Shown here one piece after another: positions 13,397 to 20,720 of a stretch of DNA of 21,386 nucleotides. The notes beneath the pieces are model-generated. The model did not search any database, had not been told where the DNA came from, and worked only from the letters and a program-made list of their open reading frames with translations. Source of the stretch: a virus; IMG/VR virus record IMGVR_UViG_3300031977_000216, positions 1 through 21,386 of that record; one strand, 5' to 3'. Within the stretch, counting starts at the first letter, position 1. Every line of letters starts with the position of its first letter. The position numbers and the translations under genes were made by a program.

Positions 13397-13423
13397 AAGA
13401 GGGGGCGTAATGCCCCCTTTTTT
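13397..13423 (+). terminator. Rho-independent terminator after gp23
   Basis: GGGGGC (13401-13406) and GCCCCC (13412-13417) pair around the five-base loop GTAAT. The stem extends by A-T and one G-T pair to 13397/13421 and runs into a six-T tract (13418-13423). It starts 24 bases after the gp23 stop and ends the highly expressed head operon. Confidence 0.9.
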
Positions 13424-13457
13424 ATTTGACTATATACTAATTGATAGGAGAACCTTT

Positions 13458-14033
13458 ATGTTTTCAATACCTTTATTTCATTACACAATCGACAACTGGC
13501 CAGAGGCCAGAAAAAAACTCATCAACGTAATGGACACCCAGAAGTTTGAGAATGCCTACGATGTGAGTAACGTCTCTACATCATATGGTGTACAGTTCAA
13601 GGACGCTGACCTAGAGTTAAAACAAATATTACAACCCACAGTAGACGAGTTTATCAAGGAATCTGAGATACAGAATCCTATGATTGCTGACATGTGGTTT
13701 CAAAAGTACAAAGAACAACAATTTCACGCACCACATAACCATGGCCCCTATGGGTGGTCTAGTGTGTTGTATATTAAATATGACCCTGCGGTACATAAAG
13801 CGACAAGATTTATCGCACCATTCCCTGACGTCCAAGGTAGGACGATAAACTACTCACCACAAGATGTGGTAAAAGAAGGGTCTTGGATATGGTTCCCTGC
13901 TTTCATCAATCACTATACGACACCAAATAAGACAGACGAGGAACGTATCATAATGTCCTGTAACATGGTGGATGTGGTATCTTATTTGACATGGGAAGAT
14001 GAAGAGGCGAAAGATAAGAGACCGCAAGCATAA
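13458..14033 (+). CDS. Putative 2-oxoglutarate/Fe(II)-dependent oxygenase
   Basis: 191 aa from ATG 13458, chosen because TAGGAG (13445-13450) lies seven bases upstream; the open frame continues 16 codons further up, into the gp23 terminator. It has the double-stranded beta-helix signature of a viral 2OG-Fe(II) oxygenase family. Metal ligands are His93 and His95 in HAPHNHG and a distal His152 in GSWIWFPAFINHYT. Arg163 and Asn169 in ERIIMSCNM are the usual co-substrate binding end. Such proteins are frequent in marine T4-like phages; substrates are mostly unknown (protein, nucleic acid or small molecule). No promoter of its own is clear between it and the terminator, so it may depend on readthrough. 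Confidence 0.75.
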   Translation: MFSIPLFHYTIDNWPEARKKLINVMDTQKFENAYDVSNVSTSYGVQFKDADLELKQILQPTVDEFIKESEIQNPMIADMWFQKYKEQQFHAPHNHGPYGWSSVLYIKYDPAVHKATRFIAPFPDVQGRTINYSPQDVVKEGSWIWFPAFINHYTTPNKTDEERIIMSCNMVDVVSYLTWEDEEAKDKRPQA

Positions 14034-14644: not shown

Positions 14645-15073
14645 ATGACCCTAGAAGAATTACAAGACCAGGCGTCTAAAGACCTGGCGATAGATGAAAC
14701 CCAACTAGACATTGAGTCCTTATCTACACCAACACTACACAGTAAATACCTAAAGATATATTCGACATATGCCCTTATGTTGAAGAAGGAAGAAGGTGAC
14801 TACTCTAAACTACATGTTAAGAAGTGGTTATTCTTCACTGGTAAGGCAGACCCAGAAGAATACAAAGACCAAGACTTTCAACTGAAAGTGTTACGACAAG
14901 ATGTGGATAAGTTTATTGACGCTGACGACCTCATCATCAAACAGAGACAAAAGATAGAGTATCTAAAACAGATATGTAAATTCTGTGAGGACACACTCAA
15001 ACAGATTAACAATCGCACATTCCAGATTAAGAACGCCATAGAGTGGAAGAAATTTACAGGTGGTGATTTCTAG
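14645..15073 (+). CDS. uvsY: UvsY recombination mediator
   Basis: Loads the UvsX recombinase onto gp32-coated single-stranded DNA in recombination-dependent replication. The 142-aa product is close to T4 UvsY (about 137) and follows its layout. The N-terminal helix is MTLEELQDQASKDLAIDETQ, then the conserved Thr-Leu-His-Ser-Lys-Tyr-Leu and a Lys-rich stretch with WLFFTGKADPEEY (about 60-75). The C-terminal helical part, ICKFCEDTLKQINNRTFQIK with the final Ile-Glu-Trp-Lys, corresponds to the heptamer-forming end. There is no strong SD. Its TAG overlaps the GTG of the next gene. UvsX itself is not in this window. Confidence 0.88.
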   Translation: MTLEELQDQASKDLAIDETQLDIESLSTPTLHSKYLKIYSTYALMLKKEEGDYSKLHVKKWLFFTGKADPEEYKDQDFQLKVLRQDVDKFIDADDLIIKQRQKIEYLKQICKFCEDTLKQINNRTFQIKNAIEWKKFTGGDF

Positions 15074-15636
15074 TGTTGATACATTGGGTCATTGGTAATG
15101 GTGTTAGTAGGAAAGATGTTGATATAGATAAACTAAAAGGTGTCAGGTATGGTTGTAATGCGATATACAGAGATTACTGGACAGACTACCTGTTCTCAAA
15201 AGATAAACCAATAACCTTTGAGATTTATCGAAGTGGTGCGTGGAAAGACAGACGGGTAAGTGTTCAGACGTATTGGAGAAACGATAGTGAGTTCAGACCA
15301 ATACAGAACCACATCTCTCTATGGTCACATCAGAGATGGTTTAAGAATGAGGATTTCACAGACACGGGTACGATGGCACTACGACAGGCAAGTCACAACG
15401 CTATGAAATACCTGGGTGATAAGAAACATGGTGGTGTTGAGATACACATGGTTGGATTCGACTTTGACAAGACGAATATATACTCTAATACATCATGTTA
15501 CCACGAAGGTGGTCGTTTTGGTATGACACATAGTTTTGTGGATACTTTTGAATTGTTTCCACAACTGACATATGTCCAACATGGATCTATGCCAGACGTA
15601 TTGAAGGAGAAAGATAATGTTATTTTGTATAGGTAA
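15073..15636 (+). CDS. GT42/sialyltransferase-like protein, short copy
   Basis: 187 aa from GTG 15073, which overlaps the uvsY stop (TAGTG). It starts with a Rossmann-type motif WVIGNGVSRKDVDIDKL (IGNG 7-10), then YGCNAIYRD (Cys28, Asn29). Farther on are a helix (MALRQASHNAMKYL), IHMVGFDFDKT (GFDF 128-131) and MTHSFVDTFELFPQLTYVQH (His153). This order matches the bacterial GT42 sialyltransferase CstII (GNGPS...RCNQF...GIDFY...GHS...), whose His is the catalytic base. The resemblance is from memory, at motif level. It is paralogous to the next gene but about 85 residues shorter in the middle. The substrate is unknown; a surface glycan or nucleotide-sugar role is inference. Confidence 0.65.
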   Translation: MLIHWVIGNGVSRKDVDIDKLKGVRYGCNAIYRDYWTDYLFSKDKPITFEIYRSGAWKDRRVSVQTYWRNDSEFRPIQNHISLWSHQRWFKNEDFTDTGTMALRQASHNAMKYLGDKKHGGVEIHMVGFDFDKTNIYSNTSCYHEGGRFGMTHSFVDTFELFPQLTYVQHGSMPDVLKEKDNVILYR

Positions 15637-16438
15637 TGGTGAGAGCAGAAAAGACTTAGACCTACATAGGTTGAAAGACTTTGGTAAGATATATGGTTGT
15701 AATGGTCTATACAGAGATTTTACACCTGATGTATTGTTGGCGATGGATTACAACATATGCCACGAGATTTATAGGAGTGGATATGCCTTTGAGAATCCAG
15801 TATATCTGAAATCATGGGAGAAGAACCCACACACCCTACACCCCAAACTATTCGAACCAGAGACGATAGCCAAGTTCATAGGACAAGATATAGAAGATGT
15901 ATCTGATTATGTTGATGAGTGGGCATGGAAGGGTGAGAAGAAAAAATATTTTGTTTGTTGGGCGAACAATAAAGACCTAATGAAGAAGATGAGGGAAGAG
16001 AGAAAAGATTGGAAGGAAGATGACTTCAAGTTATATCTGAGTGAAGACCAAGAGGGATATCTCATAACATGGTTGAAGAAGAAAGACAAGGTGATGGGTC
16101 TTGGTAAGTATGCCAATGAGAAGACGAACGCAGGCATATTGATTGCCATGATGGCCGCAGATGTGGATAAGAAGATATACCTCATAGGTTATGATTACTA
16201 TTCAAAGTTATCAACTGTGAATAATGTGTATAAAGGCACCAAGGGTTATGTTGGGGAGAAGGCAGCCGCAATTGATCCTCAGAACTGGATATATCATACT
16301 AAGAGATTATTGAACAGATATGAGAACCACGAGTTCATACACGTTGGGCAACCAATAGATGATTTAGAGGAAAGAGACAACTGGACGAATATTAGTTATG
16401 AAGAACTAGATGAGCGAATTACAAATAGAAATCTTTAA
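15617..16438 (+). CDS. GT42/sialyltransferase-like protein, long copy
   Basis: 273 aa, start ATG 15617 with AAGGAG (15604-15609) seven bases upstream and a 20-base overlap with its paralogue. Shared landmarks are FCIGNGESRKDLDLHRLK (IGNG 5-8), IYGCNGLYRDF (Cys28, Asn29), HEIYRSG (50-55), NAGILIAMMAADVDKKIYLI followed by GYDYY (171-195), and IYHTKRLLNRY (His227). NAGILIAM...IYLIGYDYY lines up well with CstII's nucleotide-sugar-binding helix and Ser-Gly-Ile-Asp-Phe-Tyr. Residues about 75-160 form a lysine/glutamate-rich insert that the short copy lacks. There are no membrane segments. DUF115-type or other nucleotide-binding relatives are alternatives. Its 3' end overlaps uvsW by 29 bases. Confidence 0.68.
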   Translation: MLFCIGNGESRKDLDLHRLKDFGKIYGCNGLYRDFTPDVLLAMDYNICHEIYRSGYAFENPVYLKSWEKNPHTLHPKLFEPETIAKFIGQDIEDVSDYVDEWAWKGEKKKYFVCWANNKDLMKKMREERKDWKEDDFKLYLSEDQEGYLITWLKKKDKVMGLGKYANEKTNAGILIAMMAADVDKKIYLIGYDYYSKLSTVNNVYKGTKGYVGEKAAAIDPQNWIYHTKRLLNRYENHEFIHVGQPIDDLEERDNWTNISYEELDERITNRNL

Positions 16439-17867
16439 TCAGGCATACGTCAAGTGTAAGTCAGAGGATCTTGGGTTACTCCAAGACCTATCAGATTTCT
16501 TTACGTTTCAGGTACCAGGAGCCAGTTTCATGCCATCAGTTAGGGCAAAGAGATGGGATGGTAAGATACGATTATACAGTAAGGCGACTGGCAAGTTATA
16601 TAGAGGGCTAGTGCCGTATGTACAGCATTTTTGCGAAAAAAACAGCCATACAATCATACTACCGGAAGGCTTAAACAGCGGTGGTAGCGTTCCTAGAGAC
16701 GATTTTTCCAAGTTTGTTGACACGATTTTGACGAAAACCCTCAAAATTAGAGATTATCAACTGGACGCATTTAGTCACGCTATCAACCATAGAAGATGTA
16801 TTCTACTATCACCTACCGCTTCTGGTAAGTCATTAATCATCTATTGCATAATAAGAATGATGACAACACTTGGCAAGAAAAGTCTATTGGTGGTTCCAAC
16901 AACATCTCTGGTAGAACAAATGTATAAAGACTTCATCGATTACAGTTGGGACGCTGAGGCACATGTACAGAGGAAGTATTATGGTTATGATATTGATGAG
17001 GCTAAACCTGTCGTTGTATCCACGTGGCAATCACTATCAACATTCGACAAGAAATGGTTTGAGAAATTTGATTGTGTGATAGGAGATGAGGCCCATCTCT
17101 ACAAATCAAAAGAGTTACAAAAGATTATGGGTAACCTAGTCAATGCTAACTTTAGGATTGGTACGACTGGTACACTAGATGATAGTAAGGTTCATAAGTT
17201 GGTGTTAGAGGGTCTATTTGGACCTGTGACCAATGTAACATCGACAAGAGAACTCATCGACAAGGGACAACTGGCAGACCTAAAGATACAATGTGTCGTA
17301 TTGAAGTACCCCAAAGAAGATTGTCAACAAGTCAAGGGTCTAACCTATCAGGAGGAGATGGACTATATAGTATCACATCAAAAGAGAAACAAGTTTATCT
17401 ACAACCTTGCCAAGGATCAGAAAGGGAATACTCTAGTTTTATTTCAATATGTTGACAAACATGGCAGAATGTTGTATGATAGTATAAAAGAATTAAATAG
17501 AAAAGTTTTTTTTGTTTATGGTGGTACAGACACCACAGATAGAGAAGACATAAGAAAGATTACAGAAAGTGAGAACAATGCGATTATTGTGGCGAGTTAT
17601 GGAACTTTTTCTACTGGTATCAATATTAGGAATCTTCACAATGTTATATTCGCAAGCCCTACCAAATCTAAGATACGAGTTTTACAGTCTCTTGGTCGTG
17701 GGTTGCGTCTTGGTGATAATAAAGTTAAGGCAACTCTCTACGATATCGCGGATAACCTAAGTTGGAATGATAAGAAAAACTTCACACTCAATCACTTCAT
17801 GGAACGTGTTGGATTCTATACTGAACAGGAGTTCGACTATGAGATCCACAACGTAGATATAATATAG
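16410..17867 (+). CDS. uvsW: UvsW helicase/annealing protein
   Basis: SF2 helicase that unwinds branched DNA and R-loops and so switches T4 from origin- to recombination-dependent replication. The 485-aa product (T4 about 503) has a small N-terminal domain with FMPSVRAKRWDGKIRLYS (about 40-57). Then come Walker A SPTASGKS (134-141), motif Ia VVPTTSLVEQM, the DEAH box (Asp226-His229), motif III IGTTGTLDDS and the C-terminal RecA domain. That domain has IIVASYGTFSTGINIRNLH (motif V) and QSLGRGLRLGD (motif VI). All helicase motifs are intact. Its start lies inside the preceding GT42-like gene, so it is probably translated by coupling. Confidence 0.95.
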   Translation: MSELQIEIFNQAYVKCKSEDLGLLQDLSDFFTFQVPGASFMPSVRAKRWDGKIRLYSKATGKLYRGLVPYVQHFCEKNSHTIILPEGLNSGGSVPRDDFSKFVDTILTKTLKIRDYQLDAFSHAINHRRCILLSPTASGKSLIIYCIIRMMTTLGKKSLLVVPTTSLVEQMYKDFIDYSWDAEAHVQRKYYGYDIDEAKPVVVSTWQSLSTFDKKWFEKFDCVIGDEAHLYKSKELQKIMGNLVNANFRIGTTGTLDDSKVHKLVLEGLFGPVTNVTSTRELIDKGQLADLKIQCVVLKYPKEDCQQVKGLTYQEEMDYIVSHQKRNKFIYNLAKDQKGNTLVLFQYVDKHGRMLYDSIKELNRKVFFVYGGTDTTDREDIRKITESENNAIIVASYGTFSTGINIRNLHNVIFASPTKSKIRVLQSLGRGLRLGDNKVKATLYDIADNLSWNDKKNFTLNHFMERVGFYTEQEFDYEIHNVDII

Positions 17868-19027: not shown

Positions 19028-20070
19028 AAATAGCAATTATAGCAGATACACACCTAGGTGCGAGGAACGATAACCCACATTACAGTAAATACTTCTATAA
19101 GTTTTACGATGAGTTATTCTTCCCATACTTAGAACAGAATGATATCAAAGATGTCATACACCTTGGTGATGTATTAGATAGACGTAAGTTTGTTAATTTT
19201 AAGACATTATCAGACTTTAACAATAAGATTGTGAGACGTTTAGAGGATTACAACGTGGACATCATCGTGGGTAACCATGACACATACTATAAGAACACGA
19301 ACGATATCAACGCACCAGACGAACTACTGAGTGAATACTTTAACGTCTATAGAGAACCAACTGTCGTGGAACGTGGTGGTATGAAGATGTTATTCTTACC
19401 ATGGGTCAACTCACAGAATACTGAACGAACAACGATGATGTTAGAACAGGAGACCGCAGATATAGTCATGGGTCACCTAGAGATAAAAGGCTTTGAGATG
19501 CATAATGGCCACATATCTGACATTGGACTGGATAAGAGATTATTCAGACGATTTGAGACGGTATTCTCTGGACACTTTCATAAGAAATCTGATGATGGTC
19601 AGATATTCTATCTTGGTGCGCCATACGAGTTCAACTGGGCAGACCATAATTGCCCTAAGGGTTTTCACATATACGATACAGAGACGAGAGAATTAAAACA
19701 GATACGAAATCATACAACGATACATGAGAAGATATATTACAATGACGAGGAGAACGATTACAAAGATTTTGACTTCGACAAATACAAAGACAAATATATA
19801 AAACTGATAGTGGAGAAGAAGAAAGATTACTTTCTATTCGACAAATTTTTAGATAGTTTCTATAAGGTAGATATCAACGATATAAAAGTTATAGAAGACT
19901 ATTCTGACCTAGACGCTTCGACAGTGGCAGACGATATCGCTGAGAGGAGTGAAGACACACCAACGTTGTTAGATAACTATATCGAACAACTAGAGACAGA
20001 CCTCGATAAGGACAAACTCAAAACATTGATGAAGTCCTTATACACAGAGGCAGGAGACATAGAAGTATGA
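19024..20070 (+). CDS. 47: Recombination nuclease subunit gp47 (Mre11/SbcD-like)
   Basis: Nuclease subunit of the gp46/gp47 complex that resects DNA ends for recombination and degrades host DNA. The 348-aa product (T4 about 339) has the calcineurin-like metallophosphoesterase motifs in order: DTH (Asp8, His10), HLGDVLDRR (Asp49), VGNHDTYY (Asn84, His85, Asp86), VMGHLEIKGFEMH (about 150-162) and SGHFHKK (about 184-190). The C-terminal third is charged and acidic and probably binds gp46. All metal ligands are present. The start overlaps gp55 by ATGA, and its own stop overlaps the next ATG the same way, so the cluster 55-47-oxygenase is one coupled unit. Confidence 0.95.
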   Translation: MKIAIIADTHLGARNDNPHYSKYFYKFYDELFFPYLEQNDIKDVIHLGDVLDRRKFVNFKTLSDFNNKIVRRLEDYNVDIIVGNHDTYYKNTNDINAPDELLSEYFNVYREPTVVERGGMKMLFLPWVNSQNTERTTMMLEQETADIVMGHLEIKGFEMHNGHISDIGLDKRLFRRFETVFSGHFHKKSDDGQIFYLGAPYEFNWADHNCPKGFHIYDTETRELKQIRNHTTIHEKIYYNDEENDYKDFDFDKYKDKYIKLIVEKKKDYFLFDKFLDSFYKVDINDIKVIEDYSDLDASTVADDIAERSEDTPTLLDNYIEQLETDLDKDKLKTLMKSLYTEAGDIEV

Positions 20071-20720
20071 ACTTAGACGAAGTACAATTTGAACAGAAAG
20101 ATATTAATTGGGGTCCCTACATAATGCACTGCCGTCTACCTCAGTATATGATAGATAATCTTATCGCTGGTGGTGATGTGTTAGATACAGATTTTAGGGA
20201 TCAACTTGCTGGGCACCTAAAGGTTGAGAGGGCATATAACGAGGCACAATGCGAATGGTTCTACAATGAGATGTTACCAATATGGAATGAGTACCGTCTG
20301 AGGCATTACAACTACCATGGATTTGGTAAATATGATGTGCCAGAATCCCCTGTGGCTATAAAAGGTACACAGTTATGGATCAACTATATGACCAAGGGTG
20401 AGGCGAACCCACCACACACCCACTCTGGTGATTTGTCATTCGTAATCTATTGCCAGATACCAGAAGGTATGACAGACCTACATGGCATCAAACCAAACTC
20501 AGCACCCCCAGGTTCAATTATATTCCAACACGGTGTCGTAAACAGGCCACAGTGGTCTATGACAGAGAGGTATTTTACACCAGAAGTTGGAGATATGTTC
20601 ATCTTTCCCGCACTACAATCACACATGGTGTTGCCATTTCGATGTGATGGTGTGAGAATATCTGTATCAGGTAATCTGATATATACTAACAGAGACGAAT
20701 GGCCTAGTTACTTTTTTTAA
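20067..20720 (+). CDS. Second putative 2-oxoglutarate/Fe(II) oxygenase
   Basis: 217 aa. It shows the double-stranded beta-helix signature: PPHTHSGDLSFVIYCQIPEG (His117, His119), EVGDMFIFPALQSHMVLPF (His186) and GVRISVSGN (Arg197, Asn203). These correspond to HxH, the distal His and the 2OG-binding Arg. The N-terminal half (about 1-90) is a helical extension with a conserved-looking Glu-Trp-Phe-Tyr. It is not a close copy of the oxygenase after gp23; only the core motifs agree. It overlaps gp47 by ATGA, and gp46 starts two bases after its stop, so it is embedded between the two nuclease subunits. The substrate is unknown. Confidence 0.75.
   Translation: MNLDEVQFEQKDINWGPYIMHCRLPQYMIDNLIAGGDVLDTDFRDQLAGHLKVERAYNEAQCEWFYNEMLPIWNEYRLRHYNYHGFGKYDVPESPVAIKGTQLWINYMTKGEANPPHTHSGDLSFVIYCQIPEGMTDLHGIKPNSAPPGSIIFQHGVVNRPQWSMTERYFTPEVGDMFIFPALQSHMVLPFRCDGVRISVSGNLIYTNRDEWPSYFF

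Follow-up and report, generated by a model that had tools for sequence, protein, structure and literature searches.

The two adjacent genes between uvsY and uvsW in this stretch of DNA (the window, a 21 kb virus record of 21,386 nucleotides, which comes from a close T4-like relative of Pelagibacter phage HTVC008M) encode proteins which almost certainly have the fold of the GT42/GT29/Maf superfamily and are distant relatives of the bacterial sialyltransferases. Judged from the profile comparisons described below, GT42 is the nearest characterised part of this superfamily. We propose that the two proteins, termed A and B here, would be phage-encoded single-domain enzymes which take a CMP-activated sugar made by the host, either a nonulosonic acid (such as pseudaminic or legionaminic acid) or Kdo, and add it in the cytoplasm to proteins of the phage virion, much as Maf does on flagellin. 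Taken as a whole this reading is tentative and falls a little short of an even call. As regards its parts, we infer that glycosyl transfer by the family is probable, that a CMP-sugar donor is evenly balanced, and that a virion-protein acceptor is possible but doubtful.

From 12.1 kb the gene order in the window is major capsid protein, 2OG-Fe(II) oxygenase, tail tube, uvsY, A, B, uvsW, a small conserved gene and the late sigma factor. A (15073-15636, + strand, GTG start; identified from the ORF list, the AlphaFold model and the tree) is a short GT42-superfamily protein of 187 residues which consists of the core domain only. B (15617-16438, + strand, ATG start; identified from the ORF list, the AlphaFold model and PHROG 30607) is a long form of 273 residues, in which an A-like core carries an insert of about 85 residues. 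The original prediction had described adjacent overlapping reading frames between uvsY and uvsW which differ in length by such an insert. This description is confirmed by the comparison of the two proteins, by the ORF coordinates and by Pfam matches to the neighbours, which are the uvsY recombination mediator upstream (14645-15073, + strand; PF11056, E = 8e-35) and the uvsW helicase downstream (16410-17867, + strand; PF21241 and helicase domains). The uvsY gene ends at 15073, the reading frames of A and B share 20 nt and those of B and uvsW share 29 nt, and because of these overlaps the set uvsY-A-B-uvsW looks like a translationally coupled operon. Two 2OG-Fe(II) oxygenase genes (phrog_81) are found in the window at 13410-14033 and 20067-20720, and in other pelagimyophages relatives of the former are repeatedly found next to the family gene at the gp59-gp32 site.

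The homology of A and B is beyond chance (phmmer E = 1.5e-14 among the ORFs of the fetched loci), and jackhmmer searches seeded with either protein recover an identical set of 303 ORFs, 203 of them distinct. The motifs common to both are IGNG[V/E]SRKD[V/L]D, YGCN..YRD, EIYRSG and VGFDF/IGYDY; all were listed in the original prediction and all are present in both copies, although EIYRSG is not conserved among A's own relatives. Purifying selection acts on both genes: against relatives whose silent sites are unsaturated, NG86 dN/dS is 0.07-0.15 in A and 0.05-0.10 in B. In the tree, the genes group by genomic site far beyond chance. A clusters with genes from the gp59 site and B with genes from the uvsY/uvsW site, in separate and well-supported clades, the A-type clade taking in genes that other pelagimyophages carry between gp59 and gp32. 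Their placement in different site-linked clades indicates that the pair in the window was assembled from two old paralogues; a recent tandem duplication is contradicted by the tree.

Comparison of a 40-member family profile (A4) with all PDB sequences reached significance for GT42 sialyltransferases only, namely CstII (PDB entry 1ro8, E = 1.3e-7), CstI (2p2v, 2.3e-6) and the Pasteurella multocida enzyme (9c08, 7.2e-6), with the next match at 0.81. A profile containing more of the long forms gave the same GT42 enzymes at 1e-4 to 2e-3. Alignment of A4 with CstII using hhalign gave a probability of 97% (E = 2e-10), compared with 88% for a rough DUF115 set. The Pfam family PF06002 is matched by seven of the 40 members (best E = 8.7e-6), and A and B themselves fall short of it in the Pfam scan. 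PF01973 is matched weakly by two of the 40 (best E = 0.03), and no DUF115 proteins were found using hmmsearch with the family profile. The pyrophosphokinase HPPK and the thiamin pyrophosphokinases, which share the fold, gave no significant profile match among PDB sequences.

The AlphaFold models of both proteins are confident (pLDDT of 90 for A and 94 for B), and both show the Rossmann-like fold of GT42 (GT-A class). Fold comparison using VIA-align indicates that A is most similar to Maf (PDB entry 5mu5, Z = 10.9), CstII (Z = 10.6, r.m.s.d. of 4.0 for 166 aligned positions) and CstI (Z = 10.2), followed by HPPK (Z = 9.9) and the thiamin pyrophosphokinases (Z of about 7-9). For B, the top eight rows are all CstI or CstII (Z = 7.8-8.7; for CstII, Z = 8.7 and r.m.s.d. 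of 4.1 for 174 aligned positions), after which come the GT29 sialyltransferases and HPPK. Foldseek alone gave no significant match for B in the PDB, but the VIA re-examination did give CstI and CstII. The highest-ranking BFVD matches of A are unnamed proteins from phages; a DUF115 protein and an MptE-like protein, the latter from a phage, come lower in the ranking.

The loops IGNGVSR in A (residues 7-13; 15091-15111, + strand) and IGNGESR in B (residues 5-11; 15629-15649, + strand) are of the nucleotide-binding type. In A, Asn9, Ser12 and Arg13 are near-invariant and align with Asn9, Ser12 and Leu13 of CstII. The YGCN motif at residues 26-29 of A (15148-15159, + strand), which ends in Asn29, aligns with RCN31 of CstII, and the alignment places the same motif at residues 26-29 of B (15692-15703, + strand), again with Asn29. 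In the family alignment (about 200 distinct sequences, each of at least 150 residues), the positions aligned with CstII Asn9, Ser12, Asn31, Gly133, Gly152 and Asp154 are 99 to 100% conserved, and the conserved motifs of the family are GNGxSR, CN, Asp44, Gly99, GxD and NxY. The motifs of the nucleotide pocket, whose loss from both copies would have spoken against the original prediction, are kept in each. The residue which follows GNGxS is an almost invariant arginine in the family, whereas it is a leucine in CstII.

The general base of the GT42 enzymes is a histidine (His188 in CstII and His202 in CstI; PMC4202792), but no column of the approximately 200 aligned distinct sequences contains a conserved histidine. 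In most members the stretch corresponding to CstII His188 reads Asn-Trp, and in the A-type proteins it reads Val/Met-Thr or something similar. The histidine of Thr-His-Ser in A, which had been put forward as catalytic, occurs only in the copies nearest to the window, and the other A-type proteins have Lys, Arg, Ser or Met there, so that even within this group it is not conserved. CstII-style catalysis by histidine is therefore rejected for the family. The acceptor-site residues Arg129, Asn51 and Tyr81 of CstII also have no conserved equivalents in the sequence alignment. From the order of the strands, the invariant Asp44, which sits in a PDxLxxxD strand similar by eye to the DUF115 pattern, is probably the counterpart of Asn51. 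Since the GT42 histidine is missing, catalysis would need another residue, for which Asp44 may be considered the first candidate. In view of the missing counterpart to this histidine we do not file the family as a strict member of GT42, although it probably works like a GT42/Maf enzyme. The GT42 likeness originally proposed therefore stands at the level of the superfamily, where profiles and predicted folds agree, but not as strict membership.

The family is widespread in T4-like phages and is not unique to the uvsY-uvsW spot. Profile scans of viral contigs gave at least 596 and at least 524 stretches encoding relatives among the 600 matches listed for each of the two profiles. The minimal form is A-like, with about 190 residues, and the B-like form adds the insert; some genomes carry two or three paralogues. 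Of the cultured phages in the collection searched, only two were found to have the family, HTVC008M with three copies and Mosig EXVC030M with one that is clear. It is abundant in environmental phages yet annotated only as hypothetical: NCBIfam holds no meaningful match, and the literature searched for phage genes of the GT42, DUF115 or sialyltransferase kind contains nothing on it. A recent host origin is rejected in view of its absence from 116 of 118 Pelagibacteraceae genomes; of the two matches, one is weak and the other lies on a contig which is phage-like and also carries uvsW. A search for PF06002 in 385 genomes of the same class gave no match, but its control gave none either.

Members of the family occupy several fixed junctions of the T4 core, and five settings recur. 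The uvsY-[A]-B-uvsW arrangement is one of these, and another is the gp59-gp32 junction, in which the family gene is accompanied in some cases by a 2OG oxygenase gene. In the third setting, the portal gene and a small ORF are followed by the family gene and then by an acidic ORF and the prohead protease, scaffold and capsid genes. The fourth, at the capsid/tail site, runs from the capsid gene to a TPR/GT9 gene on the opposite strand, cluster 30, the family gene and cluster 17. The fifth is a cassette seen on three contigs that were binned into MAGs of bacteria; on two of the three it lies upstream of uvsW. At the capsid/tail site, 23 of the 25 distinct family genes lie no more than three genes from the one encoding TPR and a GT9-type glycosyltransferase (PF01075, 2.3e-6, with TPR profiles), and the proteins of clusters 30 and 17 average 22 and 24% Ser plus Thr, compared with 13% overall. 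The layout of the TPR/GT9 gene is reminiscent of FlmG, which glycosylates proteins and has a GT domain alongside its TPR domain (PMC7591256). In loci L245 and L246 a GT61 gene (5e-20) is found in the neighbourhood of the family member, L246 also having a 2OG oxygenase gene, and the A-type gene of HTVC008M, gp002, is directly followed by a Nol-like carbamoyltransferase gene and two 2OG oxygenase genes.

Several further genes were noted in these regions. Cluster 55 (L184:2710-3837 and relatives) lies between the capsid and TPR/GT9 genes in some phages; its likeness by eye to a glycosyltransferase is unsupported by Pfam and PDB profile searches. Cluster 77, in the capsid/tail-tube interval of L018 and L021, encodes a protein of 354 residues with a signal-peptide-like start which by eye resembles a BMP-type solute-binding protein, and in some pelagimyophages it is inserted into the head operon. 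The extra gene at the junctions of the family is frequently one with the annotation DNA endonuclease V (phrog_274), as at the uvsY-B junction of L053, at the same site in L039 and L045, and before the A-type gene in L102. The hypothetical protein gp106 of HTVC008M (L250:2117-3256) matches the Druantia DruA domain (PF14236, E = 5.5e-18), and an asparagine-synthase-type protein (L243:1170-2945; PF00733, 5e-50) stands at the head of a family-bearing cassette on a contig in a Pelagibacter MAG.

Neither a CMP-sugar synthetase (CTP_transf_3) nor NeuB was found in 19 phage records (two complete genomes, the rest mostly fragments), and on this basis a phage-encoded CMP-sugar pathway is not supported. 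The HTVC008M gp130 protein, labelled 'cytidyltransferase', was rejected as a CMP-sugar enzyme, as its CTP_transf_like match is only weak and is accompanied by a DUF5824 domain. NeuB is present in 39 of 60 Pelagibacteraceae genomes and CTP_transf_3 genes are present in the Pelagibacter MAG tested, so that host-made CMP-nonulosonic acid or CMP-Kdo is available in principle; the Maf enzyme of C. botulinum accepts both Neu5Ac and Kdo (PMC11339370). The nonulosonic-acid system that had been envisaged thus finds a plausible donor in the host, but no synthesis genes in these phage records.

The evidence which points to virion proteins as acceptors comprises the TPR/GT9 gene with its Ser/Thr-rich neighbours, the GT61 cassette, the carbamoyltransferase and 2OG oxygenase genes, and the copies between portal and protease. 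Against this, Ser/Thr-rich fibre-like proteins are common without glycosylation. The immediate neighbours in the window are recombination genes, and for A and B themselves the argument would therefore rest on analogy with the other lineages. A and B might instead remodel a surface glycan of the infected host (LPS or capsule), for instance as a means of excluding other phages, with the host supplying the CMP-nonulosonic acid or CMP-Kdo. We consider this unlikely, though worth keeping in mind: the closest relatives of solved structure are sialyltransferases, of which CstI and CstII build lipooligosaccharide structures (PMC4202792), pelagimyophages have many LPS-type glycosyltransferase genes which have been read as serving host O-chain modification (PMC7029224), and the GT61 cassette adjoins the family gene in two loci. 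However, the genes examined lie in core junctions beside head, tail and replication genes, outside the host-recognition island in which PMC7029224 places many LPS genes, and one lineage is flanked by the TPR-GT9 gene and fibre-like genes. The original prediction had allowed for either phage or host surface modification, and the context in related phages favours virion proteins.

A role other than glycosyl transfer is raised by the fold itself, which on the predicted models also includes pyrophosphokinases (Z = 9.9 for HPPK and about 9 for thiamin pyrophosphokinase). That A and B are nucleotide-dependent enzymes of this kind, related to MptE/HPPK or thiamin pyrophosphokinase, would fit the missing GT42 histidine and the DUF115-like strand bearing Asp44, but we regard it as distinctly unlikely given the profile match to GT42 at 1e-7 with none to the pyrophosphokinases, and the near-absence of PF01973 matches. 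Glycosylation of modified bases in the phage DNA, as by the T4 alpha- and beta-glucosyltransferases, is very improbable. The family genes do lie beside uvsY, uvsW, gp59 and gp32, all of DNA metabolism, and some beside 2OG oxygenase and carbamoyltransferase genes; however, a thymidylate-synthase-type base hydroxymethylase (PF00303) was found in none of the 19 phage records (two complete, most fragments) with a positive control, which argues against T4-style DNA glycosylation, and those neighbouring 2OG oxygenases that were tested belong to the phrog_81 or 2OG-FeII_Oxy_5 type. We give equally little credence to the idea that A, B or both lack activity and serve for binding or regulation, with the fold as a scaffold. 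It could account for the lack of a conserved histidine and for the paralogues in some genomes, but both copies retain invariant pocket motifs and evolve under purifying selection.

Returning to the transfer of a host CMP-sugar to virion proteins, it is rather unlikely that its most specific form holds in every particular, that is, a new glycosyltransferase family with a host CMP-nonulosonic acid or Kdo donor and a non-histidine base, by which virion proteins are coated with sugar. If it does, sialic-acid-type glycosylation of the virion would be common in phages that infect SAR11 and other bacteria of aquatic habitats. Mycobacteriophages are a documented case of glycosylated virions (PMC12363180), and for SAR11 phages the literature searched mentions no route by way of a CMP-sugar. 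Placement in the GT42/Maf superfamily makes a specific question testable, namely whether HTVC008M and Mosig virions carry sialic-acid-like sugars.

PHROG 30607, which B matches with E = 1e-112 and A with E = 1e-13, is catalogued just as a family of unknown function, to which the present analysis adds a superfamily and more distant members. With GT42 (CstI, CstII and 9c08; PF06002) the family shares profile homology, predicted fold and the GNGxS, CN, (S/T/A)G and GxD motifs. It differs from GT42 in having no equivalent of His188, an arginine after GNGxS, conserved NNxY..T..Y and (in most members) NW motifs, a core of down to about 187 residues, and a phage core-gene context. The archaeal HPPK (MptE-like) and thiamin pyrophosphokinases have the same fold core (Z = 7-10) but transfer pyrophosphate and not sugars. 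Profile similarity to Maf (DUF115, PF01973) is weaker than to GT42, and Maf is a protein of three domains arranged around a central one (PMC11339370), whereas A (187 residues) and B (273 residues) each have one domain. Maf is nevertheless the top fold match for A, tied with CstII, has a similar PDxLxxxD-like strand, and acts on a protein acceptor, as is proposed here for A and B.
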